Assembly (NCBI GenBank): GCA_014904985.1
Contig: MU128962.1
Location: forward strand, 101,587-165,586
Direction of reading: 5' to 3'
Length of the DNA stretch: 64,000 nucleotides
DNA from: Hydnum rufescens UP504
Lineage: Eukaryota > Basidiomycota > Agaricomycetes > Cantharellales > Hydnaceae
Position 1 is the first letter of the stretch; the number at the start of each line of letters is the position of its first letter. The notes under the pieces were generated by a model. It was not told the DNA's origin and made no database searches. It was given only the letters and a program-made list of their open reading frames with translations. Of the stretch, positions 32,929 to 64,000 are shown one piece after another. Both the position numbers and the translations under genes were made by a program.

Positions 32929-33094
32929 ACTTTTCCCCATCATATTAGATATAATCTGCATTGCATTTATCACATCTAACTAGATGTTCACACCGGGTGC
33001 CCCCCAGGGGCCCCTAGCCATATTATTCATTATTATTAATTTATTATTATTATTATTATATTATTATATACATCCATGGGCTCACCCATGCACC

Positions 33095-34779
33095 CAAGAA
33101 GAACAGCCAGAGGCTGCTCTTCTTGTGCAATTGTAGCCAAAGAAACAACAATACTTACCTTTACATTAGGGGGTTGGCTTGGCTTGGCTTGCTGGGTCTT
33201 TGTTCACTGGGTTTGCATTCTCAGGGTCTTCATTTGGTGGGTTTGGGGTTGCTGGGTTTGGCTCAGCGGGTGTGGGGTTGGGGGATTCGTGCAGATTCAA
33301 GTCCAAGATCTAGAAAAAACAATACATTAGTTAAACAAGAAAGCATCTAAGAAGCCACACAATTAATTAAAAAAACTCACCTTGTAGTACCACACACCTG
33401 CTGCTGTGGGTGTGTGGTACTTTATTTCCTCATGTATTACCAGCCGGGTTTTGATACAGGAGGTTGCAGGGGTTCTTGCATTGGTATTTGTTTGTGTGAA
33501 AGGTGGAGACCTAATAGAAAAAAAAAGAGTTGGTCAGTTAAGAAGTAAAGGCAGTGCAAAAAGAGCAGCTTTCGCTGCTCTTTTTGTGCAGCCGTATGTA
33601 CTGGGGGGGGGGACTCACCTTATATGGGACGACACCCACAGCAGGTATTTGGTTCCCAGGGCTCTCATTTGGTGCATCCTTGTCTGTTGTGACATTGTTT
33701 GGCACACCCTCAATTGGCGCGTCCTTGTGTGGCACATTGCCATTTGGCATGTTGCTGTCTGGGCCCTTGTTGTTTTGCAGGCTTTCGTCGTACTGTAGAA
33801 AAGATCTTGAGCTAGAATAATAGAAAATGTGTTAGTAAAAGAAGTCCAAAGCAGCACAAAAAGAGCAGCTTTCACTGCTCTTTTTGCGCTGCTGTATCTA
33901 TGGGGGGGGGAACTCACCTTGCATAGGACCACACACCCACAGGTGTGTGGTTCCTGGGGCCCTCATTTGGCATGTAGCAGTGTGTCGTGTCCTCATTTGG
34001 CATGTTGCTGTTTGGGATATCTTAACCTAGAATAATGAGTAAAGTGTTAGGTAAAAGTAATACTCATGCAAAAAGAGCAGGGACTGCTCATTTTGCGCCT
34101 TTGTAGCTATTGAAAAAAATACATACTTTATATTGCCACACACCCACTGCAGTGGGTGTGTGGCTCCTGATTCTCCTGCTCTTCTGGTCTGTGGCTTCAT
34201 GCACACATCATCACTCGTTTGTTACCATGTTGGCCCATAATCATGTGTGGGGTCTTGTTGGTGGTGTACTTGTGGATTCACTGGTTGGTTTGGGCTCGCA
34301 TTCAGGATCTAAAAAAATTAATATGTTAGTCAAACATTAAAGCAGCGCAAAAAGAGCAGCTTATGCTGCTCTTTTTGTGCGGCTGTATCTACTGGGGGGG
34401 GGACTCACCATATATAGTGCCACACACCTGCTGCAGTGGGTGTGTGGTTCCTGGGGCCACACGTTGGGCGCATTCTCATCTATTGCATGTTTGACATGTT
34501 GGCATCTGTCGCGTTCTTGTTTGGTGCATTGCCATTTTGGCGTGTTATCATTTGGTGTGTCACCATTTGGCGTATCGTTGTTTGGGCCCTTGTTGTTTTG
34601 CAGGGTTTTGTCAGGCCTTGGACCAGGTCATGATCTAGAATAATAAAAGTACATTAGTAAGAGTATTCAAAGTAGCGCAAAAAGAGCAGCTTTTGCTGCT
34701 CTTTTTGCACTGTTGTATCTACCATGATAAAAAAAACTCACCTTGTGACCACACACCTGCCACTGCGGGTGTGTGGTCA
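33095..34779 (-). repeat. Left hairpin-module array of element I (minus-strand sense)
   Basis: Hairpins alternate. H1 type (CACACCC...GGGTGTG) lie at 33387-33420, 33627-33656 (degenerate), 33925-33955, 34135-34164 (a perfect 30-nt palindrome), 34419-34448 and 34746-34779. H2 type (GAGCAGC...GCTGCTC) lie at 33095-33125, 33557-33586, 33857-33886, 34069-34095, 34348-34377 and 34678-34707. Read on the minus strand, each H1 is followed within ~10-15 nt by a 5' splice-like site (GTGAGT), then an intron-like segment with H2. Next comes a branch-point-like CTAAC/CTAAT and a 3' TAG. Introns fit complement(33511-33618), (33812-33917) and (34309-34408). The stretches between are 'exon-like' and G/T-rich on the plus strand. 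Confidence 0.85.
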
Positions 34780-35639
34780 TTGCTTGCCTTTCTAGGCAGT
34801 ACATGGGCAGTTGTAAGAAAGAAAGAAAGTAACTCAACACTGGCAAATGCCAGCACCTCAAAAGTGCCCAAGTCCCAGCACCATGAGCATAATACAAATT
34901 AATAGGAAGGATCTAGACATGCAATCAATATTATATAATAAATATTTGTCCAAAAAATGTGAAGAAGACAATGATAATCAGGCAGAGCTCAATAAGCCAC
35001 GATATGCCTAATTGCAAAGAGGATTAGGCCATTTCTATGGGTCAGAATTGGCCCAAATTTAAATATATTGATGATATATGTGCACCCTACATGGGTGACT
35101 AAGTACATTAGATGTTTCTGCCATTTTTCAAGTTTTCATGCCCTCAATTCCCTAAATAGGGAATTGAGGGCATGAAAACTTGAAAAATGGCAGAAACATC
35201 TAATGTACTTAGTCACCCATGTAGGGTGCACATATATCATCAATATATTTAAATTTGGGCCAATTCTGACCCATAGAAATGGCCTAATCCTCTTTGCAAT
35301 TAGGCATATCGTGGCTTATTGAGCTCTGCCTGATTATCATTGTCTTCTTCACATTTTTTGGACAAATATTTATTATATAATATTGATTGCATGTCTAGAT
35401 CCTTCCTATTAATTTGTATTATGCTCATGGTGCTGGGACTTGGGCACTTTTGAGGTGCTGGCATTTGCTGGTGTTGAGTTACATTATTTCTTTCTTACAA
35501 CTGCCCATGTACTTGCCTAGAAGACACCCGCAGTGGCAGGTGTGTGGTCACAAGGTGAGTTTTTTTCATCGTGGTAGATACAACAGTGCAAAAAGAGCAG
35601 CAAAAGCTGCTCTTTTTGCTGCTTTGAATTTCTTTACTG
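34672..35639. repeat. Core palindrome of element I
   Basis: The arms mirror each other about position 35155.5. Close to the centre they are essentially identical ('CCCTCAATTCCC' facing 'GGGAATTGAGGG'). Similarity continues for about 480 nt on each side, including one H1 and one H2 hairpin per arm. The core shares its sequence plan with the palindromes at 60236 and 63431: a 'GAGCTCAATAAG' box, 'CAGAATTGGCC', an A/T-rich TATATAAT stretch, and an outward-reading short open frame. Confidence 0.93.
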
Positions 35640-37041
35640 ACCACTTTAATTTCTCTAGGTCATGGCTGGGTCCCAGGCACCAAATGTAATCCCACCAAAC
35701 AATGAGACTTGACCTGCCAGGGCCCAAATGGCAACATGGGAACTGAAAACACCCCCAAACGAGGCCACACCAAATGAAATGGCACCAAACAAAACCACGC
35801 CCAGCAAAAATGCAACACGACATGAATGCAAAAGGTGGCTATGTGCCGACCAAGTGGCCACATGAACCACACACCCACTGCGGCAGGTGTGTGGTTCTAT
35901 AAGGTAAGTGCACCCCCAATGGCACAAAAGAGCAGCAAACGCTGCTCTTTTTGAGCTGGTTTTAATTCCTAGCTAATGCATTTATTACTCTAGGTGATTG
36001 CCTGAACCACAAACACCAAATTGAAGACCCCCCGAACAAAGCCCCCCACCTCCCGAAAATGACAATGCACCTGCCAAACAAATGCCACAAATGCGACCCA
36101 CCAAAACAGCAAATACTGAACAAAATCCACCAACGACAACCGACCAAGGAACACCCACCAGACAAAACCCAGGAATGGGAATGGACAACGCAAAGGCATG
36201 GAACCCCCAGACAAACCACACACCCACTTTGGTGGGTGTGTGGTAATTTTATTAAGGTAAGTTGTATAAATACAATTGCACCAAAGGAGCAGCATATGCT
36301 GCTCCTTTGGTGTACCTTTTCTTTTTCTTTTTTACTAATGTATTATTTATTATCCTAGGTTTCATCTGAACCCACAGCCCCCCAATCAGTACCCATGACC
36401 CTGCTGGACAAACACGCGAGAATGGCAACCCACCCATGAGGACAGAAACCTGAAAACCAGACCACCCACCTAAACGATGACCAGCCCCTGTAAGCAAAAC
36501 CGAATGTGTGACTGTGGCACAACCAAGTACCACACACCCACCTGAAGTGGGTGTGTGGTACTACAAGGTATTATTTTTTAAATTTCTATACATACAGGGA
36601 TGTGAAAGGACCAGTGCAAGCTGCTCCTTTTATGTCCCTTCGAATTTTTTTTACTAACGTATGGTATTATTGTAGGACCCAGACCGGAGCTCCTGAAACA
36701 ACAACCCACCCCAACAGCCACCCGTGACCCATCCAAATGACCCACCCAATGGTGAACCGCCAGGCCATGCCCCTGGTGCCACACACCTGCTGAGGGGGGG
36801 TGTGTGGTACAGAAGGTATATGTATTTTTTGTTTTGGTTTAGCAAGTGGCATAGAAAGAGCAGCATGAGCAGCACTTTCTGCACCACTTTGCTTCAAAGC
36901 TAACTTCTTTTTTTATTTATTCTAGGTTATTGTGCAACAGATACTACCTGCTGCCCCAGCAATAACCCCCCCTTTGAAAACTGGCTGAACCCCTGATGAA
37001 GCAATGGGGGCACCACACACCTGCCTTAGCAGGTGTGGTGC
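35523..37041 (+). repeat. Right hairpin-module array of element I (plus-strand sense)
   Basis: H1 hairpins: 35523-35549, 35865-35896, 36215-36244, 36526-36562, 36777-36810 and 37010-37041. H2 hairpins: 35589-35618, 35925-35953, 36279-36312 (a perfect 34-nt palindrome), 36598-36640 and 36845-36886. Intron-like segments with GT...AG ends are 35555-35658, 35904-35993, 36257-36358, 36568-36675 and 36816-36925 (90-110 nt). Each has a TACTAA/TACTGAC-like branch motif. Exon 2 (35659-35903) has early stops in all three frames, so this arm cannot encode one long protein. Confidence 0.85.
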
Positions 37042-37432
37042 TACTTCATAGTCTTTTTTTTTTTTTTGAATTTTTAAATAAATAAATAAACATGAGACTG
37101 CTGCCTTGGGTGTAGTGTATAATATAGTAAAAATAAATAAATAAATAATTATGAATAAAATACATCATCCCCAATTAAGCCCATGTAGCCTGCTGGCCAG
37201 CAAGTCTGAGATTAGGTGACTGACAGAAGTGCCTAACCCAATACCCCCAACCCGATATATTGAAGTTTTCTGACCAGTCTAAGTTCTGGGGCAGGGGCCC
37301 CTGAGGCCCCCCATGTCTCAATCTGAAATGACCTTATCTGGCCCCTGGGGGCCCCCTGGCGAAATCACTACTTAGATATAATAAAAGCAAGGCTCATTAT
37401 ATCTAAGTTGATGGGGAAAAGTGGCTGACTGA

Positions 37433-38504
37433 ACTGGGGTTGGGAGAGGAATCCACATCAGAGACCTGAATTTCATTCAGAAGTTTCTGTGTATGCACTA
37501 CTTGCCACTGCTTGATTCTTGGTAACCTGAGGCAAAGATGGCACAAATCCAAGGATGCTGGTCTCATTTGACCCTTTGTATTGCCTGACAAGAGGTGGAG
37601 GTGGTCCTGGATAAGTTGTGGGGACAGGCTGGTGAGCATACCTCAAAATTCCAACAGATCCACCAACAGAATGGAATTGAACATGTCCAGGTGCCCCAAT
37701 CCATGCTGGGTGGGGTCATGGATGATCCCAAGGAGGCTGGTGGGAGGGGCTAGCAATTTGTGGTTGAGGTGATGCAGTTTGTTTACTTGTTGTGGCTTGC
37801 TTACCTTACATGGATCAAAATGCCCATCAATCTGATGGCCTTCATCACTGAGCCTCAACATGAGAGTTGCCCATATTCCACCCAGAGATAGTCAAGAACC
37901 TTCCTCATGTCAAACAAACAGTTTTATCATGGTGAGGGGGCCCCAGGCCTGGTGAATCCATTTATGGGCATTCAAAATGAGTGAATTTTAATATATTTTG
38001 GGACTGATTCACTTCATGAGCAAGCAATTTTGCAGTTTCTACACATTTTTTTGCTCAGGGTCCTAGATGCCTTCTGTGTGCATCTACAGTATGAATTTGG
38101 AGAGCAACAGAATAGAATTGGGGGCTCTAGGAGGGCAACAGCAATTAGTAGGGTCTGGCAATGGCAGTGATATGTAATAGTATAGACATGTCTAAAATAG
38201 CCTGCCACAGGCACTGCCTGGGAGGGTTTGTTCACCAGCTGGAGAGTGTTACAGGTCTAATTTAGGCATGTCTAATAAGATATTTTCTGGAGCCTTAGAG
38301 GTGTCTATCATCCTTACTGTGTGTCTACTGGTGTCTAAATCAAACATTTTGGGCCCAACCCTGGTGGCAGTACTAATAGGTGTCTAATGGCATCTAGATC
38401 CAATAATAATCCAATAATAATGGTGCTATTGTGGATCCATGTCTACTAGTGTCTAAATTAAAACAAAGGCTTGTGGCTATGCAAAACCTAAGGACTCTGC
38501 ACCT
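37433..38504. other. Transposon-derived filler between two elements
   Basis: A/T-rich sequence with short repeats of 'GTGTCTA' and 'CATGTCTA' (38160-38460). Open frames such as complement(37403-37639) have no motif. It is probably decayed element DNA. Confidence 0.4.
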
Positions 38505-38814
38505 TGGTCAGCCACTTGGGCTGACCTCAAAAGGAGTACCATTTGAGGTCATTTTGCTGGCCTAAGGAGGACTGATTTTCTTTGATGTCAATTGACAATG
38601 ATCAAATTTGACCTTAGTGATTTGTCCAAAATCAATATTACATAGAGCAATACCTTATCTCTAAATTACAGTGTGGATTATAAGGCCATAGTTAAAAATG
38701 ATTATTTATTAAGGCTGCTCTAATCATGTACTTAACAAAATCTACCAAACAAAATCTATGGAATGAAATTAAACAAAAAGGAAATTAAGGGTGGACTGGA
38801 TGAGAGCAACATGC

Positions 38815-41192
38815 TCATAAGAGCCCAGCAGGAGTGCCCAGTAGTAGATCCTGATTCTCAAAAATATCCAGGCCTGGGAACTGCGAGAAATCAACATCAA
38901 CATTGGACATTGGAAAGTCATTTATGTCCATAGGCATAAATTCGAAGGTTGAATGATACGTAGATGATGCCACTGAGGTCATGTCAACATCAGCCATTGG
39001 AGGGCTCATAGTGCCAACTCCAAACATGGGCAATGGGGATGGTGGAGTAGAGGTAGATGACAATGCTGGGCCTATTGAGTGAGTGGACGTGGCCTGAGGG
39101 CCCTCATCTTCATCTTCTATGATCATATTTGAGACCACCTTCTTCCTCTTTGCCCCCTTCTAGTTCCACTCCATCTGTGACCTCATTTTTCCTCCACCTC
39201 TTGGGGTTTGGCCTAGTAGTCCCATCAGCCCTATCATCTGGATTTGGATTGCCCGAAGTTCCACCTTGCTCAGATGGAACAGACCCATCTTTAGCTGATG
39301 GTTTCTTCTTAGCAACCTCACCCTCCCAATCTGTGACATGTAACCTCAAGTCATCACTATTATGGACAAGCATTGTTGTTGGCTGTAGAGCCTGATCTTC
39401 TGGTTCTTCAAGCCGTTTCACAGTGAGACATTTGTTATCATCCGCAGTGAACAGTTGGTTCCACATGTTGGTCCAGTGCTCCATTCATACAGAAGAGACA
39501 GTAAATCCAAGCATATCAGGAAACTCTTGGGTCGCAGGCCAGTTTTTGATCCATAGGCAATGTCGTATAAGGAATGCAGGGATCATGCCCCAAGGAAACT
39601 TCGATCCAACAGTTGCTCCACTACATTCCTCAAAAAGCTGTGTGAGCTCAGCTGTACACATGGTCCGCTTGGCATGCATGTCAGGGGGCATCTGCTTTGG
39701 GGCTTGTGTTGGCCATATTCCTGTTAGCCCTTCTATGGCAATGATGTAAGAATGAATTGTCAGTAGAAGCGATGTTTGGACTGGTAATTCCGCTTTACAC
39801 CATTTTTGCATGGCACTCATCCCACACACCATTGTGTTATGTTTGGATGCAGCAACGTTGGGATTCCCAGATATGATGATGTACATAATATGCATATTGA
39901 GCTTGGCACCCCATTTAATATCATTGGACCATCTCTTGTTCAGGCTCTTCATCTGGCTCCCTAACTCAGCTGCATTCAATGAGATCTTCTGGGCAGTCAC
40001 AACTTTGCATTTCGTGTGCTCCGCTACCAGCTCCTTCGCCTTTTGTTTCCATGCCTCAGATTGCGACCCCCATGTTCTGAAATGAGGGCAAGATATGTCA
40101 GCTTGATCACCTGTGCCACATATTCATGATGTGGTCCTGGAAAGGCCGTGAATGTTAGAATAGATGTCTGGAGTGAAGAGAGATAACATATTACTTATGA
40201 GTTGCCTTCTCAGGATCTTCAGGAAATGCATTCTGGTATGCATTCCATGCATTGCCACCAGCCTGCCACTCCTTAGTGGCAATGACCAAATTCGCAATCC
40301 ACATCATGGCATCAAGAGGATGTCCCCAGGCCTTTGCGCAATGCCTAAGACCCGCCATCAGGTCATTGGTGAGACCCTTGACCCCTAGCACTTGTTCCTG
40401 GGTGAAGTGACCCCCTGACATCATGGAGGACACAACCTCCTTGTCCAGATCATTGTCATTGTCATCATTATCATCATTAATGAGATTATTGATGTCCTCT
40501 TGATCTGCCACAGACGCATCGACAAGATCATCTGTGTAGTCTTGATTTGCCACAGGATCATCACTGTTGGACTCATACCCATCGTCCGACAAAAACAATG
40601 GATGCTCAGGGGCATTTATTTCATCCTCCAGAGCTCTGTCATTGACCATGGGGAAATGAGCTGGGTATGAAGATGTTGCAACAATTGGGGAGGGTGATTT
40701 AGTTTGTGTGAGAGCGTGAGAAAACATGGGTGGTGGGGGAATGCAAGCATGAGATGATAGTGGAATAGGGACCAGAGGTGAAGGATGATGAGAAGCTTGG
40801 CTTTTCGTGCCTTGTTGTGTAACTTCATCTAGACACTTTGCACCATGAGGGGGGCCAGTATGCTCCTTGAAGACAGCTTGGTGAGGGTGAGACCTTAGTT
40901 CTAGCTTGACAATGGCATGGTTGACATGGGGTGGAAGGGGCAGCTGCTCTGACAAGTCGGCTATGTGTTGAGATTTTGGAGTATTGGACCCAGGGCCTCT
41001 AGGTTTCTTGTAAGTTTTCAAGTTTCCCATGCTTACACAAACAGAGCGAGGGTAGGGAGGCCAACTAAGCAAGTTCCCTGAACAATCAAACTGTGTTCTT
41101 ATTACTTGGGAAGGAGCAAAAGCAAAGAACACAAAAAAGTATGTTCTGGTGTGGAAGATAAAAACATCCAGTATCAGAAAATGTGAAATCAC
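38815..41192 (-). pseudogene. Degenerate transposon-associated gene of unknown function
   Basis: The main pieces are complement(40191-41192), an intron, complement(39485-~40080), then 39110-39484 and 38815-39138. The N-terminal part is Pro/Ser-rich, then very acidic (Asp/Asn run), followed by a conserved-looking 'WIANLVIATKEWQAGGNAW'. The second part ('WKQKAKELVAEHTKC', 'KWGAKLNMHIMYIIISGNPNV') looks globular. One in-frame stop separates 39485 from 39484. A run of five G near 39155-39160 then shifts the frame, so that the tail ('KRKKVVSNMIIEDEDE') is out of phase. I do not recognise a catalytic domain. Similar lineage-specific proteins accompany KDZ transposases; that link is inference from position. 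Confidence 0.55.
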
Positions 41193-41269
41193 ACCACTCC
41201 CAGCTTTTGGACAATCACATGACCAATTATGAAATTAATTACAGCTATGTGCGGAAATCAAATTTGTTC

Positions 41270-41690
41270 TATAACTCCATCAGTTTTGATTGGAGAGGTA
41301 TGCCCATATAATGCTTAGAAAGCTACGATTCACACCTTTCGAATGGTACCAAACACAAGTCGAATGGACCAAAACTGCACTCTCCAGGCCAATTTTACTA
41401 TCAAAATCCAGGATTTCCAGTAAAAAATGAATTCCTCCATCAGTTCGCATTCAATCCTCTCAGAACAACTGCACCTGGAAAGATATAAAAAAATCTGCAT
41501 CCAACGGTACCAAGTGCGCAAAGAACAGATCAAAACTGAACTCTACAGAATGATATTACTATCAGAATCAACACCCATCAGTAAAAAATGAATTTCTCTG
41601 TCAGTTTACATCAGATCTGCTCGGAACCACCATGCCCAGAAAGCTGTTAAAAGACCGCATCTAATGATACTAAGAACGTCTACTACGGAT
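41270..41690. repeat. Degenerate tandem repeat, about 135-160 bp period, block A
   Basis: Three diverged copies each contain 'CTCCATCAGTTTTGA' or a close variant, then 'GAAAGCT', then a 'CCAACGGTACCAA'-like segment. The same motif order recurs in block B at 48630-49080. No coding potential is visible. Confidence 0.7.
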
Positions 41691-42701
41691 GCAAACTGCT
41701 GTTTCTGCATTGAATCCCATCCCATGCACTTGTCCCCATTATCAACCAGCAACAAAACACCTTAACCATTGGACTATGCCCAAATTAATCTCCAAAACCC
41801 AGAGATATCCTTTCATTTCGCCTCCAGAATGCTCCACATGGTCAGTGACCACATGCTCCAAGCATTCCACATGCTCAGCAAATTGGTGACATCACCCCCC
41901 CTCATGATTCCCTGTGTTCTCTTTATGAATGACATCACTATGACATCACCCTCATGATTCCTTTTGTTCTCCTTATGCATGACTTCAGCTATGACCGCAT
42001 TATGACATCATCTTGTTATTTTTCTTTTGTTCTCACCTATGACTCACATATGACTCACCCATGAGGGAGTCATATTTCTTAAACACAGCCACCTTCAGAA
42101 AGGTATAAAAGCTGGTAGATTTCCTGTATCCCCCCATCATCTCCTCTCTGGAAATCATCACTGTCAACCACTGTCAACTTTTCTGCTTGCCTCTAAAGAA
42201 CAGTCTATCTATAAGCCATCTGGAGCTAAGTCATCTTCAAGGTTGTTGAGACAAAGCCACTGGTAGCCCTCTATGTGAATCACTAAAGCCAAGGATAGTT
42301 GCAGGACCTAAGGTTAGAGTTGCTGGACATCCAAGGAAAAGTAAGCATAATGAAATATGAATCAGGTTTTGAAGAAAGAAGGAAGAAACATACTAACAAG
42401 ACTAACCAAGCACTGACCAGTCTGTAGCCCACAGATATCTGCATTTTGACCAGGAGTATGTAAACAAGAATACACAAATATCAGTAAATGAACCAACACA
42501 ACATGAACAATGTATAAGCCTTTCTACAAGCATCACAGATGTATAAGCCTTTCTATAAGCATCCCAGACGATATATCATTGACTACAGCTAGTCCGTATC
42601 CCTTCCTATTCTCCACTGAACACCATACACATCTTGCAGAGTGTGATCAACCATTGAAGCGAACCAACCCAATGAATAACAACAGAAATACAGTCTCCCA
42701 T

Positions 42702-45055: not shown

Positions 45056-46559
45056 ATTATGCTATGTCAAAGGCAGACTAGTCTGCCATTGCATGGATCA
45101 GCTGTATACCCGTAAGTCTTTTGGGTGCACCTGTCATCACTGTTGTACTTTGTCTTCCAAAGTACTAATTTTACTATTAGCTCTTCATTGCTACTCAACT
45201 CAAGAGCAATCGTGGGGCAAGGGGTTTTATTTTTGTGGAGCACCTAAATGATCATGCAAATTTTGGAGTAAAGAATCCATTGTTTTTACATCTAGTCATA
45301 TTTACATTCATGTCAACCAGGATGGTCAGATGAGGATCTTCACCTCTTCATTCCAAGGACCCCACCTCCTCAAAACTAGGAATCCCCTGTCATTCATCCA
45401 TGCACACCCACCCTACAACAATCCTCCACTCAGCATCTATCTGCAGGATCAGGATTATCTAGGCAGGACACAGTCTCAGTATCAACTCCCATGCAGAGTC
45501 ACCACCTGGGATGTCAAGAACTTGAGGATTATGTTGTGGTACTTGAAAGACGATTGGTGGAAAAGGATGAGGAACTTTGGGTGGCTCTGTGGTGGAAGAA
45601 TGAGGCTGAAACAAAACTTGAAGATGTGAAGGACCATCTTAAACAGATCTTAGAAACACTGTGATTCATTGTCATACTATTCATTTGGTTAGACTGATTG
45701 AAAAAAAAATTATGGACAGACACTTTCGCTTAATTGAACTGTAGCACCAGCCATACTCCAGACTGCACTTTTCACATACTGGTAGGTTGGAATCATGGCT
45801 CTGATATTCCAAAATATTTACATGATTGGTGAGGATTCTGAAGAATTGTGAGGAATCCGCATCAACTGGGTGACAAGGCCTTGCCCAATCTCCAGAATAT
45901 GTACCAAGAAATCCCAACTTCCCATATTAGGAATTCTATGGCCACAAGAAGCAAGTAGATTACTTAGAGTGCTCAGAGGATCAACTATCAATTGAGGAAT
46001 GACTATGTGATGCAAGGAGCATAGAAATCGACCAATTCAAATATTAATATTGCCTTCTTGGAAGGATTTTACAGCCGTTTCTTCATGAATTTTCTTCATT
46101 GTTGACTGACCAATGCATCTAATTGAGACAATGCTGCTGTCCCCAATTTTACGCAAAAATGCCAAGAATTAAAGAAGTTATGGCCAAGTGTCCAACTTCT
46201 AGGTGTCCGGCAACCAGGTCTGATGAGACTACTGAATTACCCTTTCCATAATTTAAAAGTGTTTAATCACATTCCTCTGCTCTGATAGGGCTGAAGAATA
46301 GCTAGAGGTGCCATCTTTTAATATGACCTTTTCACATACTATTCCTTACTGGGTCCATTGCTGCCACCAGGTTATTGCCATTTCCCTCACAGTGCCATCA
46401 ATTCTTGTTGACATCTGCTGTCATGTGAGGAATGGTTTTATGATGTGTGAACGAAATTAGACTGGCCACGTACTCAGGACCCCCACTTGTGGCAGAGCAT
46501 AGATCAGCCATGAAGCCACACTGCTTGACACAAGTACAATATAACTAGGTGAAGGAATT

Positions 46560-48629: not shown

Positions 48630-49080
48630 GTCGAATTTCTCCATCAGTTTTGATCGGATCGACTCGGAAAGGTAGCGCTCAGAAAGATATGATTCACACC
48701 TGTCCAACGATACCAAGTACGAGTCAATCCGATTAAACCTGCATGGTATAGAACGTTTTTACTGTGTAATCCATGCTCTCAAGGAGTATTTCTCGCTTTT
48801 CGAAGCCAATTCGTATTGGATCGATTCGGAAATACATCGCTCTGAAAGCTGTGATCAATACCTATCGAATTATACCAATTACGTGTTTATCGGATCGGAA
48901 CTGAAGCTTCTGGAACGATTTCACCTGCTCATTCATAATCAGAAGGTGTATTTTGCGAATTTCTCCCTCAGTTTTGATCGGATTTGCATGAAACGACCGC
49001 GCCTAGAAAGGCATTGAAAATGCCTATCCAACGATACCAAAGGCGTCTCGAACAAAGCAGAACTCGGCGTTCTACATACG
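48630..49080. repeat. Degenerate tandem repeat, about 150 bp period, block B
   Basis: Copies start near 48635, 48795 and 48955. Each has a 'TTTCTCCMTCAGTTTTGATCGG'-type opening and, about 70 bp later, an 'ACGATACCAA'-type segment. This is the same family as block A at 41270-41690. The two blocks lie about 7 kb apart and flank the middle of the element. Confidence 0.7.
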
Positions 49081-53870: not shown

Positions 53871-55513
53871 TGGACCTCTTAGGCTGGCTTCCACTACACA
53901 GGAAGGGACCTAAGAGGTCTCAGACTGCTAAGTAACCACAATGCCAACAGAGGCTGCTCACAGGGTCTGACCCTAGGGTAGCTCATGGAGCCTCATTTTA
54001 TTGTCCATTGGAGCTCCTGGCTTCATGCATAGAAGCTCCTGCAGTGCAGCAATCTGTTTATTGCAGCTGCTTTAAGGCAGTATTGGAGCTGCTCACAGGC
54101 TGTTAATACTATTGTAGCTGCCCTGGAACTCCATCCCATAGAGAATCAGAGCTGCTCATCTTCCTGTAGCTGCTGTTAATGGCCCAAGGAGCAGCAGCTA
54201 CTATTATTGATATCTTGAGTTACTCATTTCTCCATTCAAGAGCTGCTCAACTCACAGCAGCTGCTCATTTCACAGCAGCTGCTTGTCTCCCAGCAGCTGC
54301 TTGTCTCCTAGCAGCTGCTTGTTTCCCAGCAGCTGCTTGTTGAGGGTTGGAGTTGACATGGTACAGGTTGGGAACATCTACCCCCATGTCTAGTAGTATA
54401 GTTGATGGTTGGGGACTGTTAGGAGTTGGGGTTTAGGGTTAGGGTTGGAATTGGCCAGGTGTATGTCTACCCCTGGTTGGGGGCTGCTGACTAATCACCC
54501 TTACATATGCTGCTGTAAGTATGATTAGTCACCAGAAATGTTCCAATGGCAGGATTTGAACCTGTGACCTCATTGTAGGGCCTGGGATTTTGGCAGTTAG
54601 ACCACTTTCAACCCCTCCCACCCACCCATGATTTTTTGTACTACAAGTAGGCACATTCAAGCCTAAGGTATATCAGCTAGTTATGAAGTAGATTGGAGCT
54701 GCTATGGAATGGAAAGGAGCTGCTGGCACTAAATGTCAGTAGCTGCATGCTGATATAGCAGCTGATTATTGGTCATTATAGGAGCTGCTGGCTCTCAGAG
54801 GTGCTGGAAGCACAGCCACATATTGGCTCAGCAGAGCTTATGAGCAGCTCTTTGGATGTTATATCAGCTGCTATAGAAGTGATAGGAGCTGCTGGCTCTG
54901 AATCTCAGCAGCTGCATGGCATATAGCAGCTGATTACTGTTCATTATTGGAGCTGCTCATTCTCAATATACCAGCAGCTGCTAGGAGCACAGCCACATAC
55001 CAGCTTTTCTGATGATATATCAGCTGCTATAGAAGTGATAGGAGCTGCTGGCTCTGAATCTCAGCGCTGCATGCCATATGGCAGCTGATTACTGTTCATT
55101 ATAGGAGCTGCTCATTCTCAATATACCAGCAGCTGCTAGGAGCACACCCACATACCAGCTTTCTGATGATATATAAGCTACTTTGGGATGGATAGGAGGT
55201 GCTGACTCTAAGTCTTAGTAGCTGCATGGGTACATAGCAGCTGATTATTGTTCATTATAAGAGCTGCTAGCTCTGAGGGTAGCAGCTGCTGCTGTAAGCA
55301 CAGCCACACAGCCACAGATCAGGACCTATGAAGAGCTCTTCTGATGATATAGCAGCTACTATAGCATGGATTGGAGCAGCTGGCTCTCAGTATGACAGCA
55401 GGTGCTAGAAGAAAGCCCTGATAGCAGCTGAGTGCTGTGATTTCAGGAGCTGCTGGATATCAGTGCTGGACCTCTTAGGTCCCTTCCTGTGTAGTGAAAG
55501 CCAGCCTAAGAGG
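53871..55513. mobile_element. Foldback-like element inserted in the KDZ transposase
   Basis: A ~47-bp sequence at 53871-53918 (GACCTCTTAGG ... CCTAAGAGGTC) recurs as its reverse complement at 55467-55513. Each copy is itself a hairpin with 11-bp arms. The interior (53919-55466) is non-coding and full of AGCTGCT/GAGCTGCTGG words. It includes three to four tandem units of about 130-150 bp between 54830 and 55330. No open frame of note is present. The surrounding transposase frame resumes after the right copy ('NLFPWAVEWCK'), so this is an insertion. No clear target-site duplication is visible. Confidence 0.75.
54536..54632 (-). repeat. tRNA-like / SINE-like segment
   Basis: On the minus strand there is a good RNA polymerase III B box ('GGTTCAAATCC', complement of about 54552-54562). 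Upstream of it, an A-box-like 'GTGGTCTAACTGCC' lies at the usual distance. The would-be acceptor ends do not pair, so it is not a functional tRNA. It is better read as a tRNA-derived short repeat inside the larger insertion. Confidence 0.45.
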
Positions 55514-55998
55514 TCAAACTTGTTTCCCTGGGCTGTGGAATGGTGCAAGGTGGAGCACAGTAATCTTTGGACGTGGTTCTCTAAGGAGTATACTGCAGTG
55601 GAGAGACTGGTCGACTTCACACAAAATGATGATGTCTCATTCTTTGCCCTTGTTCAACTGCATCAACTGTACAACTGGTGGCGACTTGGAGAAAAGATCT
55701 TTCTCTCATTAATTCTACTACCCCATGCTGGGATGATATCCACCCTCCAATACCTCTAGAACATCACCATCTCAGTTGAGTTTCAGGCATATCATCAAGG
55801 GGGCATAAGGATGATGGGTTGAGTAGTGTGGTATCATCTGATGATGATGATGATGGAGAACTAGAGAAGGATTGTGAAGTAGAGGACCTTGGTTTTATTG
55901 CACTCATAGATAGCACCCTCATAGATAGTGAAGATTAATCACCTCGGTCAGCCACTTGGCTGACCTTAATAGGCAGGACAAATCCTCATCTAGTCAGC

Positions 55999-56302
55999 TG
56001 TCAGGGCCATGCTGCGACGAGGGCACCAAACAATGTAAACACAAATAATTCCGGCTAAGTCCGGTGTAAGTCCGGCTAAGTCTGCAAGAATCCGGGCAAG
56101 AATGAGATAAGGAGGTTAGGGATGTCGGAGGAGCGGTCCAGCAGCCTGGAAGGGACTAGGCGGAAATGAGCACAGCGGTCCTTAAGCTCGTGGAGTCGAC
56201 TGGATAATACTTGGAGCTGTAGTCCGGAGTAACAGCGGAAATCCTGAGATTATGTAATATGAATACGGAATACATGAAGGCTGACCTGTAGTCCAGAGTA
56301 AC
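55999..56302 (-). mobile_element. Truncated LTR, reverse orientation
   Basis: The sequence is the reverse complement of the 3' ~380 bp of the LTR at 43577-44312, with one fewer internal 69-bp unit. It begins TGTCAGGG, the complement of the LTR end. It breaks off at 56302, just before the GGTCAGTCAC end of the next hairpin element, which probably cut it. Confidence 0.85.
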
Positions 56303-56564
56303 CAGGCTGGTCAGTCACAGGGGGACCTAATTTAGGTACCACTTTCGGGGCAGAAAATGGTACTAAGAGGTCCCCAAACCTTACGGCTGAAATCAGCCAT
56401 TTCAATTCAGTTTTTGGGCCATCTGTCGGCCAATCCATGGCTGTGCTAGATTATTTATTATTATTATTATTATTACTACTACTATTATTATATACATATT
56501 ATCCCCCCAGGGTCTGCCACCACAGGGGGGGGGGGGGCGTGGTTCCTGCGGGTCACACACCTGC

Positions 56565-59500
56565 ATATACCCACCACACCCGCCGCAGCGGGTGGGTTCA
56601 TTTGCCCCGGTCGGGGCTGGTTCCATTTGGCACACCCTCGAGGGTGCGGGTTTTCGTTCATGGGGGCTCGTTCATGGTTTTCGTTTGCGGCGCATCATTC
56701 GGTGGGTTTGTGGTTGGGGGTTTACGCGGGTTCTGGTTCAGGATCTAGAGAAATTAACAATGAAACATTAGTTTAACAGTAATGCAGTGCAAAAAGAGCA
56801 GCTTACGCTGCTCTTTTTGCGCCACAAGAATAAAAAATAAAAAGAAACAGATACATACCTTGCAGTACCCCACGCCCGCTGCAGCGGGTGTGGGTGCTGG
56901 GGCCCTGTACTCTGGCTCGTACGGTGGGTTGTATGGGTCCTCCCTGCGGTTTTCGTTTGTGGGGGGTCATTCGCGGGTTTCGTTCGCGACGTGTCGTTCT
57001 GTGGGTTCACCTTGGTCAGTCATCTAAGCCTACCTAGTTAGGTACCACTTCCGGGGCAGATAATGGTACCTAAGGAGGTCCCATCACTATTTCGGCCGAA
57101 ATGGCCATTTTTATGATTTCACCTCCTGGCCCAGAATTGGCCGAAATGGCCGAAAATTGGCAGAAACTTGGCCGAAACTGGGACTTAGAGAGAATCTCAG
57201 ACTTGCAGGACAGCAGGCCATGCGGGCTTATCAGGGATAATCACCAGTATTTATTATTACATTCCCCCCTCTAGTGTTTCATTTATAGTTATTTATTTAT
57301 TATCATTATCACTCACCCCAGGTGGGGGCTGTTTTCATTTGGCAGTCTCGTGTTTTGTTTTTGTTTTTATCAACTTATGTATTTATTTATTTAAAAATCA
57401 ATTAAAAAAACATACCACACACCTGCTACGGCAGGTGTGTGGTACCGTCCGTTGCTTCCTCAAGACTTTGGACGGGGGGTCGTCTGGTGTTCAGATGCAG
57501 GTTCAGGGGCATGTTGCTGGGTGTCGGGCGGCAAAATATTAAGTTAGAAATTCAAAGCAGCGCAAAAAGAGCAGCTATCGCTGCTCTTTTTGCGCCACTT
57601 GCAAAATAAAAATCAAAATCAAAAACAGACCTTTTGTACCACACCCCCGCTGAGGGGGTATGTGGTACTGGGCATTGCTGCCTTGGGCTTGGATGGGGGC
57701 TCGCCTGGCTCGTCGGTGGCCATTTGGGCGTGTTTGGCTTGGCGGCTCACCGTTGTGCGGTCGTTTGGGGTCGCGGCCGTCTGTTGTCGTCGTTTCGGGA
57801 GCTTCAAATTCAATCCTAGAATTGAATGATAACGAACGTTAGTAAAAAAAATTTGAAGTGACGCCGAAGGGGCAGCTTGCGCTGCTCCTTTGGCGTCACT
57901 GTAGATGTAGAAAGTATTTAAAAAAATACCTTGTAGTACCACACACCCGCATTGGCGGTGTGTGGTACTCGTTGTTGCCCGGGGTCGCGTACCTTCAACT
58001 GCCGGTTTTCTGTACAGTTCTCAGGTGGGTTGGGGGGTTTCGGGTATGTACTTGTTTGGGGGAAGGAAGATCTAGAATACAAGAATTTAGATCAGTAAAA
58101 GTTAACACGATGCAAAAAGAGCTGCCTTCGCAGCTCTTTTTGCGCCGTTGGGGTGCGTTACATTACATACCTTGTATAGAACCACACACCCGCTACTGCA
58201 GGTGTGTGGTTGTCTCTGTGTTTGGCGCGTCGTCATTCACGGGGATGTTGTCGTTCTGGCGGGGCTTCGCAGGTCTTCATTTGCGGCGATACCTAGAATG
58301 AAAAATTATTAGTTAAAAATTAAAAGCGATGCAAAAAGAGCAGCTTTCGCTGCTCTTTTTGCGCCGTTGGATACGGGAAAATCACCTGCCTTAAATAGTA
58401 CCAGACACCCACCGTGGCGGGTGTCTGGTTTGCATTGACTTTTCGTTCGGCGGGGTTTGGTGGTGCATTCGTCGGGTTTTCTTTTGGCGTGGCTTCAGTC
58501 TGTGTGGATCAAATTATGACCTAGATATTAAAATATGTGTTAGTTAAAAATTCGAAGCAGCGCAAAAAGTGCAGCTTTCGCTGCTCTTTTTGCACCACAG
58601 TATCTATTGAGGGGGGGGGAACTCCCCTGAACTAGTACCACACCCCCGCCGAAAGCGGGTGTGTGGTACTCCCTTTGCACCCTGGTCACGTACTTGGTTC
58701 TGTATGGGGGCTGGTTGTCACTTGGGCGGGTGTTTTGTTTCGCGGGTCTCGGTTCAGATCCTAGAGTGAGAATGTCGATTAGTAAAAAAATTCAAAGTGA
58801 CGCAAAGGGAGCAGCTTGCGCTGCTCCTTTTGTGTCGTTGTACATATAGAAATCAAATAAAAAAAATAAAAACCTTGTAGGACCACACCCACCGAAGTGG
58901 GTGTGGTCCTTGGTTTGTACCGTGGTCGTGCGGTTCGTACTCGGTACGGGGCTTGGTCGTCATGTTGGGGGTTTGAACTCTCCGGGTTTTGTTTGGCGGG
59001 TCCGTTGCCGTTCTCGTGTGTTTGCTTGGTGGGGTCGTGGGTTCAGACAACCTAAAATAACGTATAATACGTTAGTAAAAAGGAAAAAAGAAAAGCCATG
59101 CAAAAGGAGCAGCGTACGCTGCTCCTTTTGCGTGGTTATATGCTCACCTTAAAATTACCACACACCCGCCGAAGCGGGTGTGTGGTTCGTCTCTTCACGT
59201 GGCACGTCGTCGTTCGGGGTCCCTTCTGCGGGCGTGTTACCTTAAAATTACCACACACCCGCCGAAGCGGGTGTGTGGTTCGTCTCTTCGCATGGCACGT
59301 CGTCGTTCGGGGGTCCCTTCTGCGGGCGTGTTATCGTTGTGGGGGGGCTTGCTTCGTGGGTCTGCGGTCTTCATTTGTGACAATACTGTACCTAGAATAA
59401 AATATAATTAGTTACAAAATTAAAAGCGACGCAAAAAGAGCAGCTTTTGCTGCTCTTTTTGCGCGGCTGCATCTATTAGGGGGGGGAGACTCACCTTAAA

Positions 59501-59720
59501 TAGTACCACACCCGCCGCAGCGGGTGTGGTTCCTGGGCTCACTCATTGGGCGGCCTGTCGTTTGTTGTTTTGGTTTTGATCTGGAGGAATACAGGCTACG
59601 TTAGTATAAAAATTCATGGCAGCACAAAAAGAGTAGCTTGCGCTACTCTTTTGCGCTATTGTATTTACAGAGACAAAACTTACCTTATGACCACACACCC
59701 GCATCAGCGGGTGTGTGGTC
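56565..59720 (-). repeat. Left hairpin-module array of element II (minus-strand sense)
   Basis: H1 hairpins: 56570-56600, 56864-56896, 57413-57443, 57636-57668, 57936-57969, 58180-58211, 58400-58429, 58634-58670, 58878-58909, 59158-59187, 59251-59280, 59505-59530 and 59689-59720. H2 hairpins: 56789-56820, 57560-57595, 57857-57900, 58113-58142, 58331-58362, 58560-58595, 58799-58836, 59101-59130, 59431-59462 and 59624-59652. The H1-donor-H2-branch-acceptor order on the minus strand is the same as in element I. Stems run to about 13-18 bp. Several carry paired base changes that keep the stem intact. Confidence 0.87.
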
Positions 59721-59754
59721 GTGTGGTCGTGGTCGTGCGGTCGCGGTCGTGCAC

Positions 59755-59865
59755 TGTTGCTGCAGCTGTTGCAGCTGCTGCAGCAGCTGAAGCTGCTGTT
59801 GCTGCTGTTGCTGCTGTTGCTGCTGTTGCTGCTGTTGTTGCTGTTGTTGCTGTTGCTGTTGTGGC
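59755..59865. repeat. CTG/GTT trinucleotide microsatellite
   Basis: About 35 units of CTG, TTG and GCT lie just inside the left arm of element II, next to the core palindrome. They give rise to artificial poly-Leu, poly-Gln and poly-Ala frames. The right arm has no matching block, so it expanded after the palindrome formed. Confidence 0.9.
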
Positions 59866-59879
59866 ATGGTCGTACGGTC

Positions 59880-60600
59880 GCTTGCTGGGTGTGGCTGCGT
59901 AGAGTTCGAAATTCAATGCCGGCAATTGCCGATACTCAAGAAGCGCCCAAGCGCTGGTGCTGCAAGCACAGTACACAATAATACCAAGCATGTATATTAT
60001 AGATAAATACTATATAATAAAAATATGTCCAGGAAAACCCGAAGAAGAGGATGGTAATGAGTCAGAGCTCAATAAGGCATGAGATGGCTAATTACAGAGT
60101 GGATTGGGCCACTTCTACACATCAGAATTGGCCCAAATTTGAATATAGTAGTGTTATATATACACTCTACATGGGCGATTAATTATCTCGGACAACCTTC
60201 ACATTTTTCAATTTTTCACGCCTTCAATTCCCTATTATAGGGAATTGAAGGCGTGAAAAATTGAAAAATGCGAAAGTCGTCCGAGATAATTAATCGCCCA
60301 TGTAGAGTGTATATATAACACTACTGTATTCAAATTTGGGCCAATTCTGATGCGTAGAAGTGGCCCAATCCACTTTGTAATTAGCCATCTCATGCCTTAT
60401 TGAGCTCTGACTCATTACCATCCTCTTCTTCGGGTTTTCCTGGACATATTTTTATTATATAGTATTTATCTATAATATACATGCTTGGTATTATTGTGTA
60501 CTGTGCTTGCAGCGCCAGCGCTTGGGCGCTTCTTGAGTATTGGCAATTGCCGGCGTTGAATCTGCATCTTGCTTCCTATCTCTGCAACCACAACAAGCAA
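59880..60600. repeat. Core palindrome of element II
   Basis: The arms mirror about position 60236 ('CCTTCAATTCCCTA' facing 'TAGGGAATTGAAGG'). Near identity runs for about 350 nt on each side, with weaker matching beyond. A TATATAG/TATATAAT motif on each arm points outward. About 25 nt beyond it, an ATG opens a short frame read away from the centre ('MLGIIVYCACS.SAWALLEY') on both strands (start 59991 minus, 60481 plus). Confidence 0.93.
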
Positions 60601-60622
60601 CCGCCCGAAAAGGCAACCGCAC

Positions 60623-62150
60623 GACCATGCACCCGCCACTGTGGGTGTGTGGTCACAAGGTGAGTGTTTTTTCTAGTAGATACAACGGCGCAAAAAGAGC
60701 AGTGAAAGCTGCTCTTTTTATGCGCTGCTTTGGAACATCTTACTAACGTCTCTTTATTTATTTTAGATTGAGGCCTCGTCCAACGCACGATGAGAGCCCA
60801 AACAGCCATGCGACGTACGGGAACGCGACGCAGCAACGCGACATCCGGCACCGCGACACAGAAACGCGACGCACGACAGCGCGACACGGCAACACGCCAA
60901 ACGAAGACGCGCCAAACGAAGACGCGATACACGGTAATGCGACACACGGCAACGCGACCTACGGCAACGCGCCAAACAAGCACGCGACCGCGCCAAATGA
61001 GGCCCCCAGGAACCACACACCCGCCACGGCGGGTGTGTGGTACTATATAATGTGAGTCCCCCCCCCAGTAGCTACAGGCACGCAAAAAGAGCAGCGAAAG
61101 CTGCTCTTTTTGCGTGGTCTTTGACTCTTAACTAACGTATAATCTTATATTCTAGGTCACCACTTCCCGCATGAACGAATACCCACGCAAGAACCCCCAT
61201 AACCCTGCCCATCGACACCCGAACGAGGGACCCGTACAAACCGCCGCACATGCGAGCTGGAGTACGGCTCCAGTACCCCACACCCGCTGCAGCGGGTGTG
61301 GGGTACTACAAAGTAATATTTTTTTTTTACTGACATGCATTATTCTTGATTAGGGCCCGTCCAACGCAGGATGATAACCCACGAAACGACGAAAGCCCAA
61401 ACAGTGCAACGTGCCACACGGCAATGCGACACGGCAAGCAATACACGGCAACACGATACACCAACGCGACACAGCAATGGGCCAACGACGCGACCGCACC
61501 AAAGCCCACGGCAGCACGCCAAATGAGGGCACTGGAATCACACACTCCCCCGGCGGGTGTGTGGTTCTATATCAGGTAAGTCCCCGCCCCCCTCAGTAGA
61601 TACAGCCACGCAAAAAGAGCAGCTTTCGCTGCTCTTTTTGCGTGGCCCTTATTTCCTAACTAATTTAAAAATAATACTTTGTAGGTTTCAACTGCCCTCA
61701 CGAACAAATACCGACAAAGAACCCCCCGTAACCCTGCCTATCGACCCCCGAACGACGGGGGACCCATACGAACCGCCGTGTGTACGAGCCGGCATATGTA
61801 CGCACCGGCGTATGGACGAGCCGCGTGCACGTCCCAGTACCCTACACCTGCGGGTGTGGGGTACAAGGTATGTGTTATGTTTTTTTTTATTTCTTAGTCT
61901 TGTGGCACAAAAAGAGCAGCATAAGCTGCTCTTTTTGCATTGCATTAATGTTGTACTAACATTGAATCCCTTATTTCTATAGACCCTTGACCAGAACCCG
62001 CACGAACCCCCCCTGAACCCGCCAAATGACACCTTGGGAACGAAAACCGTGAACGAAAACCCACTCCCTCGAGGGAGCGCCCAAATGGAACCGGCCCTGA
62101 CCGGGGCATAGAGAGAGAATCTCCACACCCGGACACAGGGCGGTGTGGGT
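60623..62150 (+). repeat. Right hairpin-module array of element II (plus-strand sense)
   Basis: H1: 60623-60654, 61012-61041, 61272-61307 (a perfect 36-nt palindrome), 61536-61566, 61837-61864 and 62124-62150 (degenerate). H2: 60688-60725, 61081-61114, 61606-61645 and 61909-61938. Introns: 60660-60766, 61052-61155, 61313-61353, 61576-61684 and 61868-61982. The 41-nt intron has lost H2. Exon 1 (from ATG 60481) splices in frame into 60767-61051, a Thr/Asn/Arg-rich stretch with 'NEDAPNEDA' and 'GNATYGNAPN' repeats. The next junction (phase 2) hits a stop within a few codons. Confidence 0.85.
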
Positions 62151-62339
62151 ACTGGGGCTGTGTACTCCCGCTCGTACTACGGCGGTTTGGATGGGTCCTC
62201 CCTGCGGTCATCGTTCGTGGGGGTCGTTCCCATTTTCGTTCGCGGGGGTTCATTTGGGTTTCGCTCGTGGCCCGTCGTTTGCGGTTTTCATTCGGCGGGT
62301 TTGTAGTCAGGGGTTCGCGTGGGATCGAGTTTAAAATCT

Positions 62340-64000
62340 AGAGAAATAGAAAATACATTAGTTAGAAATAAATGCACGCAAAAATTTAAAAAAAAAAACT
62401 TAGCTCATAGCACCCCACACCTGCCAGATGGGGGTGGGTACACATCTTGCACAGGGCCTGTGCCCTTGGGCTCGTATATAGCTTGTGTGCCGTTTGTGTG
62501 GGTACTCCCTGTGCCCCGTCGTTCAAGTGTCGATAGGGGGGGGGGGTTATGGGGTTTTCACGTTGGTATTCATTCGTGCGGGAGGTGAGGACCTGTAATA
62601 GAAGCATATATGTTAGTTAAAAATTAAACACTGCGCAAAAAGAGCAGCTTGAGCTGCTCTTTTTGCGCGGGTGTATCTACTGGACTCACCTTATACAGGT
62701 ACCACACCCGCCGCGGCGGATATGGTACCTGGGGTACTTATTTGGTGCGGTCGCGTTACTGTTGGGCGCGTTACCGTATGTCGCATCTTCGTTTCGCGCA
62801 TCCTCGTTGGGCGTGTTGCCGTCTGTCACGTCGTTTGGCGCGTCTTCGTTTGGAGCATTGCCGTTTGGCCCTCGTTTCGCGGGTTTTGTCATGCCTTGGA
62901 TCCCAGGCCTCAATCTAGAAGAATACAAAATGTGTTAGTATAAAGATTCAAAGAGCGCAAAAGAGCAGCTTTCGCTGCTCTTTTTGCGCCATTGTATCTA
63001 CTAGTAGAAAAACTTACTTTATGACCACACACCCGCAGGTGGCGGGTGTGGTCGCGTGCTTGCCTTTCAGGCGGTTGTTTGTTGTGGTTCTGGAGATGAG
63101 AAGTAAGATGCGAAATTCAACGCGGCAATTGCCGATACTCAAGAAGCGCCCAAGTGCTGACGCTACAAGTACAATCCAGATTAATAGCAAGCATATAGAC
63201 ATGGAAATATAAATATATAATAAATATTTTTAAAAATGTGAAGAAGAGGATGATAATGAGCCAGAGCTCAATAAGGGACATATGCCTCATTGCAAAGTGG
63301 ATTGGGTCACTTCCACGCATCAGAATTGGCCAAAATTTAAATATAGTGATGGTATATATACACCCTATATGGGCGACTAATTATATTGGACGATTCTGGC
63401 ATTTTTCATTTTTCATGTCTCAATTCCCTAATAGGGAATTGAAGGTGAAAAAATTGAAAAATGCCAGAATCGTCCAATATAATTAGTCGCGCATATAGGG
63501 TGTATATATACCATCACATATTTAAATTTGGCCAATTCTGATGGTGGAAGTGACCCAATCCACTTTGCAATGAGGCATATCGTCCCTTATTGAGCTCTGG
63601 CTCATTATCATCCTCTTCGTTCACATTTTTAAACAAATATTTATTATATACTTTATATTCCATGTTATATGCTTGCTATTAATCTGGATTGTACTTGTAC
63701 GCAAGCACTTGGGCGCTTCTTGAGTATCGGCAATTGCCGGCGTTGAATTTCGCATCTTACTTCTCATCTCCGGAACACAACAAACAACCGCCTGGAAAAG
63801 GCAAGCCACGCGGACCACACACCCGCCACTGCGGGTGTGTGCCATAAAGTAAGTTTTTTTCTACCTATAAGAACAATGGCGCAAAAAGAGCAGCGAGAAG
63901 GTTTCTGCTCCTTTTTGCGCTCCTTTTGACCTTTATACTGAACACCATTTGTATTGCTTCTAGATTGAGGCTGGGATCCAAGGCACAACGAAAACCCGCG
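62340..64000. mobile_element. Element III: third palindromic hairpin-array copy (runs off the window)
   Basis: The left array is short (H1 near 62410, 62698-62729 and 63023-63053; H2 62634-62669 and 62955-62989; minus-strand sense). The core palindrome centres at 63431, with arms of about 415 nt (63014-63850). The right arm starts with H1 63812-63844, a donor GTAAGT, and H2 63879-63920 with an enlarged loop, then a 'TTCTAG' acceptor at 63957-63962. The remainder lies outside the window. Confidence 0.8.

Follow-up and report, generated by a model that had tools for sequence, protein, structure and literature searches.

What kind of element arranges intron-like hairpin modules into arrays that read outward from the centres of large palindromes? 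The question is raised by a 64,000-nucleotide (nt) stretch of the Hydnum rufescens UP504 genome (contig MU128962.1, positions 101,587 to 165,586), the whole of which is referred to here as the window. An earlier, sequence-only reading had placed three such palindromes (P1, P2 and P3) in the second half of the window and had offered three explanations for them: a new class of non-autonomous element, a self-propagating intron array, or a pair of divergent multi-exon RNA genes. The palindrome plan was examined in one genome, a 63.2-Mb assembly of 539 contigs from which all compared loci were drawn. In the explanation that we consider probable, the palindromes belong to a high-copy family of non-autonomous, hAT-like cut-and-paste transposons, each made of two half-elements joined head to head. 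A half-element would combine one half of the near-perfect core palindrome (about 325 bp) with a module array reading outward and a terminus. A module would comprise a mostly non-coding exon, an exon-terminal hairpin (H1), a 5' splice site, an intron of about 105 nt usually holding a second hairpin (H2), a branch point and a 3' splice site.

Judged from its sequence, the P1 family is a non-autonomous cut-and-paste transposon. The two ends of the P1 element (Table 1) coincide with the exact outer alignment limits of two other copies, L010 and L011. Exact 8-bp target-site duplications flank termini of the shared type in three of the six elements with both ends placed, namely P1 (4,522 bp; GGGTTGGG), L022 (4,604 bp; CAAATTCC) and L021 (6,728 bp; CCACAGGT). 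A query made from the P1 flanks joined with a single duplication had 17 genome matches, two of which are the window's own flanks. Six loci contain the uninterrupted target with 92–96% identity across the joint over 186–190 of 190 bases, four of them without a net gap; of the remaining matches, four span the joint at 74–81% over shorter stretches and five cover one side only. The insertion target is a repeat itself, found P1-free at these six places. Across the family, the terminus pattern CANNN(T/C)(G/A)GTCAG(T/C)CA fits 17 of 19 arm ends from 14 elements (the misfits are L018_R and L010_L), and the terminus at 57008, common to L020 and L022, opens a second element in the window that holds both P2 and P3, with no terminus-like motif (≤3 mismatches) in 60601–63000.

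The affiliation of these ends is suggested by a further locus, L029 (contig C43), whose left end shares 219 bp at 79% with the P1 left end and whose right end is related. Between its ends lies a match to the hAT dimerisation domain (PF05699, 38.4 bits, C43:261035–261208), though with two stops inside and without a matching duplication around the element, and neither H1 nor H2 was found there by the motifs used. No Pfam family exceeded the cut-off in 10 of the longest frames (126–247 amino acids) of P1, L021 and L022. Based on the 8-bp duplications, the shared termini, the hAT domain of L029 and the lack of an encoded transposase in those frames, we interpret the family as non-autonomous and hAT-like, not as an autonomous hAT, and a hAT transposase may act on the termini in trans. 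The family resembles other non-autonomous hAT elements in its 8-bp duplications, its CA(G)...(C)TG ends and its similarity to the termini of the hAT-domain element, and differs from them in its size (4.5–6.7 kb, not miniature), its large palindromic core, its intron-bearing arms, its interchangeable halves and the absence of any transposase found. Miniature inverted-repeat transposable elements are usually under about 0.8 kb, against 4,522–6,728 bp here. The proposal of a new class of non-autonomous element thus stands as to mobility, given the duplications, shared termini and six empty targets; because the ends are hAT-like, the element is placed as a variant of the non-autonomous hAT-like kind. 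Two leads were set aside: hAT genes near palindromes were, by eye, at about chance level and were not used, and a candidate partner, L030 (contig C5), had a single terminus in the 6 kb fetched and no modules.

Self-comparison bore out the three palindromes at the centres originally described, with common cores that are 76–81% identical to one another. The feature is not continuous over 32929–64000, since 37437–56302 is other DNA, and the P1 element begins at 32915. The exact centre pattern occurs 302 times in the genome, versus 0 for the reversed pattern, and a core query returned 534 candidate places, the scored 40 of which matched on both strands. Two loci, L033 (palindrome 205–2701, 2.5 kb, 94%) and L034 (1459–2088), likewise have a palindrome set among modules, built on a different core with little sequence match to the main one. 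Large perfect palindromes are a typical assembly artefact, and large near-perfect palindromes are what is present here; we give hardly any credence to foldback chimeras as their source, as the arms of P1 and P2 are 99% and 97% identical and not 100%, exact centres number 302, and P1 has a target duplication and empty targets, so that for P1 an artefact is effectively excluded. Although long perfect palindromes tend to be unstable, this genome has kept no fewer than 302 exact centres, with signs of arm homogenisation and of arm swapping at the centre; the family offers a natural system for testing how palindromes break and are repaired in a fungus.

The arms on either side of the cores are arrays of modules. 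A covariance model of H1, donor, H2, branch and acceptor, built on 25 modules (19 from the window), returned 29 full-length matches in the window (E ≤ 6.6e-11), confined to 33293–36942 and 56728–63980. Six lie on the minus strand left of P1 and five on the plus strand right of it, 10 on the minus strand left of P2, five on the plus strand and then two on the minus strand between P2 and P3, and one on the plus strand right of P3, such that all 29 point away from their own arm's palindrome, in agreement with the earlier claim; the boundary between the P2 and P3 arms was placed by the strand switch near 62110, and the module at 61840 is slightly closer to the P3 centre than to the P2 centre. Weaker window matches (E ≥ 1.7e-8) are mostly wrong-strand hairpins, with a few degenerate modules. 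The module layout originally described does not hold throughout: H2 is missing (by eye) in 33293–33417 and 61276–61365, and some donors of the P2 left arm are weak or broken (58504–58666 and 58276–58428). The intron-like stretches span 96–114 nt (10th–90th percentile).

The same plan recurs genome-wide. A pattern of H1 plus donor, independent of H2, branch and acceptor, has 288 + 289 matches (577) versus 0 + 0 when reversed, and the exact H2 hairpin has 3,507 versus 0. Orientation was tallied from the matches listed (94 of 577 for H1 plus donor and 50 of 302 for centres, on contigs C1–C26), and was outward in 31 of 31 matches within 1 kb of a centre, 48 of 50 within 2.5 kb and 51 of 58 within 4 kb, with the other 36 having no exact centre within 4 kb. 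In 19 fetched loci (L009–L027), modules with all signals, found by motif alone and no more than 2.5 kb from a centre, were outward in 89 cases and inward in five (in L013, L014 and L019), with 18 more lying further off; 14 of the 19 loci had outward modules on both sides. L028, which overlaps the window, was left out of this count and of the H1 stem table below. Other loci with this layout therefore exist, and element exons have homologues among Hydnum rufescens UP504 proteins (see below).

The covariance model yielded 533 matches (E ≤ 0.01, wrong-strand hairpins included) in 24 other stretches. Among the best 150, 121 have a strong donor, 141 the branch motif, 136 the acceptor and 110 all three, compared to 7.8, 37.0, 11.5 and 0.9, respectively, for the same segments shuffled, a count that is partly circular because the modules were picked by a model containing those signals. 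The predicted introns would on this basis be spliced. An ordered donor, branch and acceptor would be unexpected if the hairpins were subterminal transposase-binding or DNA-folding sites and the splice-like signals secondary, and introns without H2 retain their splice signals; that account, which has in its favour the large share of the arms occupied by the arrays and the binding sites held by repeats in the long inverted arms of Galileo (in passages of PMC3573991), appears improbable.

As to how the arrays arose, a 294-bp exon-plus-intron unit is tandemly duplicated in L019 and a 93-bp exon–H1 unit at 59146–59333 in the P2 left arm, and these duplications show a way in which arrays can grow. 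All three sampled H1 matches without a nearby exact centre sit in module arrays, as do all three sampled isolated H2 hairpins, one of which (L036) has a core beside it; these six sites are a small sample compared to the 3,507 exact H2 hairpins. The idea of a self-propagating intron array was not sustained, with six of six sampled sites in arrays and whole exon-plus-intron units duplicated. Introner-like mobile introns accumulated in a transposon are, for the same reasons, a very improbable source of the thousands of similar hairpins. Structured introns do proliferate in fungi, and the account of stwintrons in Hypoxylaceae (PMC8469720) describes many similar structured intron-like units; the units here differ in lying within transposon arrays at all sampled sites and not as insertions in host genes, in having H1 in the exon, outside the intron, and in being duplicated as exon and intron together.

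When the core arms of 24 palindromes, 48 arms in all, were placed in a tree (four palindromes with unrelated cores, L012a, L013b, L021b and L024b, were left out, and the conservation profile was made without these and without L014b), the two arms are sisters in 11 palindromes, fall in distant clades in three (L012b, L014a and L025), are sorted by side in three (L016b, L018 and L021a), include one outlier (L014b) and lack resolution in six (L010, L011, L013a, L019, L023 and wP3). Universal concerted evolution of the two arms was accordingly rejected, sister arms occurring in only 11 of 24 palindromes, and in 12 of 28 by raw identity. Whole-arm comparison defined an alpha class (left arms of L012, L014, L022 and L026), a beta class (L013 left, L014 right and L023 right) and a gamma class (L013 right, L023 left, both sides of L019 and the P3 left arm). 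The classes are paired as alpha with beta (L014), beta with gamma (L013 and L023), gamma with gamma (L019) and alpha with delta (L022 and L026, the right arm of the latter matched over about 530 bp); the L012 right arm follows beta over about 450 bp only. The first three kinds of pairing do not sort into fixed left and right classes, and the whole-arm pairings switch at the palindrome centre. We read this arm switching as the outcome of recombination at the palindromic centre or of break repair there; template switching could give the same result.

The closest published architecture is that of Galileo/Foldback, elements of the P superfamily in Drosophila, which, in passages of PMC3573991, likewise have long inverted arms with internal repeats and copies with arms of different subfamilies. 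The 12 chimeric copies described there for D. mojavensis are flanked by non-matching 7-bp sequences, unlike L022, which has two different outer arms and has kept its duplication. Galileo also differs in its 7-bp duplications, its P-type transposase and its long inverted repeats as termini, whereas in the present family the palindrome lies in the middle, splice signals occur in the outward-diverging arms, and the similarity between the two P1 ends is limited to about 90 bp at 80%. No palindromic fungal transposon with intron arrays was described among the top matches listed from the open-licence PMC literature, and the main-text part of a mycorrhizal genome survey that includes H. rufescens (PMC7550596) contains no word beginning 'palindrom'.

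In the mechanism proposed for the hAT-like family, the core would act as a bidirectional promoter for two divergent spliced RNAs, and the palindrome centre would be prone to breakage or cruciform formation. Repair from another copy could then homogenise the two arms or swap one of them, making half-elements exchangeable units, and inserted copies would later decay by CpG deamination. A bolder extension, which we put forward as a tentative and rather doubtful proposal, is a combinatorial two-part transposon in which the half-element is the unit of inheritance, halves of different lineages are repeatedly joined at the palindromic hub, any with any other and without a fixed left and right, and each half serves as an RNA locus under selection through its introns and not its exons, with thousands of hairpin introns per genome.

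The rates of change bear on whether the RNA itself is the object. Over 10 arm pairs, non-CpG differences numbered 111 of 2798 sites in introns, 133 of 3280 in the core and 282 of 3802 in exons, and the rates per site were 0.040 for introns, 0.041 for the core, 0.053 for tails, 0.060 for the H1 zone and 0.074 for exons. The intron rate is about half the exon rate (P = 3e-9), exon values being possibly inflated by minisatellites, and is also below that of tails (P = 0.018) and of the H1 zone (P = 0.008). This final version of the test used a different intron finder than the first, with three arm pairs removed and one added; in the first version, exons exceeded introns in five of five pairs with introns and internal exons. 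The question raised is why a transposon with no detected protein would keep intron signals, with introns changing slower than exons. In UHG-type host genes, introns are more conserved than the exons, which are mostly non-coding, and the family is alike in both respects; it differs in being multicopy, mobile and paired head to head, with no known RNA product.

In a MAFFT alignment of 25 modules, 13 of 28 stem pairs, CpG positions included, have changed on both sides, and in the 150-module alignment, which was itself fitted to structure, non-CpG pairs changed on both sides include AU to CG in 20 of 150, AU to CG in 18, AU to GC in 14 and CG to UA in 10. This suggests that stems were kept while the module classes arose; palindrome correction could yield the same. 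CpG sites could be scored in 119 sense H1 stems. Both CpGs are retained in 18 of them, and among the 71 mutated on both sides pairing is broken in 26 (CA/CA), replaced by wobble pairs in 18 (TG/TG) and restored in 27 (18 TG/CA and nine CA/TG). The whole 3 × 3 table of states departs from independence (P = 7e-5) and shows no excess of restored states (Fisher P = 0.05, with the deviation running the other way). Maintenance of H1 by selection at inserted copies was ruled out by this lack of excess. The CpG observed/expected ratio is 0.91 in host DNA (1–30000), 0.25 in P1, 0.17 in 37436–43900, 0.25 in the KDZ-type region described below and 1.0 in the P2/P3 element. By this measure P1 appears to be an old copy decayed at its CpGs, unlike the P2/P3 element, a contrast that suggests methylation-driven decay of older repeats and a recent P2/P3 insertion.

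Taken as functional divergent non-coding RNA genes, the arms would have the H2 introns as their product, throwaway exons and the transposon as a vehicle. We regard this as possible though not likely. The lower divergence of introns and core (about half that of exons), the changes on both sides of non-CpG pairs in H1 and H2, the 110 of 150 modules with all three splice signals and one folded module with z = −8.1 are all in keeping with it. Yet no Rfam family reached the gathering score in the window (0 matches), H2 is missing in some introns, CpG pairs decay uncompensated, and template switching can restore perfect inverted repeats and so mimic covariation. No known RNA or tRNA genes were found in the window. 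The suggestion of divergent multi-exon RNA genes thus survives for the element body, with its strong intron signals and slow introns, as a prediction.

Alternatively, as a Pack-type element, the family would be a hAT element carrying a captured, tandemly duplicated host gene whose exons once coded. In the P2-like arms, the frame of exon 2 is open and P/N-rich, and this exon matches three Hydnum rufescens UP504 hypothetical proteins (P0001–P0003) at 80, 63 and 57%. The best-scoring genome matches of the first protein are 73–84% identical (84% for the window copy), and it matches the P2 right arm at 60786–61025 and 61175–61330, two blocks that flank a predicted intron (61052–61155); by eye, the first block ends inside H1 and not at the donor, the protein's exon boundary being a gene prediction and not RNA. 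P0002 and P0003 contain translated H2 (by eye), and the three annotated proteins look like gene predictions on element copies. Pfam had no match to exon 2 or to any of the three proteins. No bias in codon phase appeared over 16 exons (P = 0.91), and of 22 exon indels 20 have lengths that three does not divide, against two that it does. On account of these phase and indel results and of the variable exon length modulo 3, coding exons were rejected as a general explanation; the Pack-type origin is unlikely. The family also offers an explanation for three or more predicted Hydnum 'hypothetical proteins', which are likely to be pieces of the transposon.

Several points weigh against the hAT-like, two-half reading. 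Three of the six elements with both ends placed (L010, L011 and L029) lack a matching duplication, eight more single ends have no same-flank partner end in the fetched stretch, and no transposase was found in the family. The arms are most alike each other by raw identity in only 12 of 28 palindromes, a set that includes the four with unrelated cores. L013 and L023 share nearly the same flank on one side and may be one duplicated insertion to be counted once. L022 has sister core arms and differing outer arms, so it is the latter that speak for its mixed origin, and the three copies mixed in the core offered no testable target duplication. As to the introns, the 150 modules were picked by a model that includes the splice signals, and the H1 stem is without compensation at CpG pairs. 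Pair by pair, exons exceed introns in six of nine, with one tie at zero and two in the opposite direction (both with tiny exons, 45 and 38 sites), and minisatellites may have raised the exon rates. Among the best 20 matches of exon 2 to a Hydnum protein, 10 have no stop and 10 have TGA only; being open in many copies, exon 2 may still be a coding exon.

Table 1. Features of the palindrome family in the window, with empty-target loci elsewhere in the assembly
Feature	Coordinates	Strand	Remarks
P1 element, complete, non-autonomous	32915–37436		4,522 bp; termini CAGCCTGGTCAGTCAC / CAGTTCAGTCAGCCAC
Target-site duplication, left copy	32907–32914		GGGTTGGG
Target-site duplication, right copy	37437–37444		GGGTTGGG
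P1 palindromic core	34798–35513		arms 34798–35154/35157–35513 (357 nt, 99%, self-comparison); centre 35155/35156
P1 left arm, 6 outward modules (covariance model)	33293–34776	−	34618–34776, 34292–34447, 34010–34163, 33795–33950, 33494–33652, 33293–33417 (outermost, without H2)
P1 right arm, 5 outward modules (covariance model)	35522–36942	+	35522–35675, 35867–36010, 36216–36375, 36530–36692, 36779–36942
Another family member, partial arm	56303–57007		terminus CAGGCTGGTCAGTCAC; module 56728–56895 (−); adjoins 57008
Second element, with P2 and P3	57008–64000		left terminus CACCTTGGTCAGTCAT at 57008; right end beyond window
P2 palindromic core	59911–60561		arms 59911–60235/60237–60561 (325 nt, 97%, self-comparison); centre 60236
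P2 left arm, 9 outward modules (covariance model)	57506–59718	−	59564–59718, 59375–59529, 59037–59185, 58744–58906, 58504–58666, 58276–58428, 58055–58209, 57799–57965, 57506–57665
P2 right arm, 5 outward modules	60625–61999	+	60625–60783, 61013–61172, 61276–61365, 61538–61701, 61840–61999; adjoins P3 left arm near 62110
P3 palindrome	62878–64000		90%; centre about 63431; inner arms 63346–63413/63450–63517 at 97%
P3 left arm, 2 outward modules (covariance model)	62576–63051	−	62898–63051, 62576–62727
P3 right arm, first module (covariance model)	63815–63980	+	
Empty P1 targets			C148:146931, C101:42699, C6:26557, C5:130142, C21:373897, C9:220173

Between the first module of the P2 left arm and the core is a CTG/CAG-like trinucleotide-rich tract (59750–59866). 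The DNA separating the two parts of the palindrome array includes a segment (43998–56302) bounded by a 236-bp inverted repeat at 94%, with an open reading frame (51132–51947) encoding CxC1 and CxC2 KDZ-associated cysteine-cluster domains; this segment, some 12.3 kb long, is probably a KDZ transposon. The genome is very rich in KDZ transposases (584 first-look candidates, 150 scored), and a comparison of these candidates with the family's terminus positions, made only by eye, linked no KDZ gene to the termini. PMC12730594 reports 8-bp duplications for Zisupton, a likeness to the present family, as is the abundance of KDZ transposases in its genome, and 7-bp duplications without inverted repeats for the two described families of Kyakuja, which are unlike it. 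Elsewhere in the window, protein similarity points to Cantharellales: an Obg GTPase at 6078–7514 has Ceratobasidium and Rhizoctonia, at 53%, among its top matches with a name, ranking below two partial-length matches at 83 and 97%.

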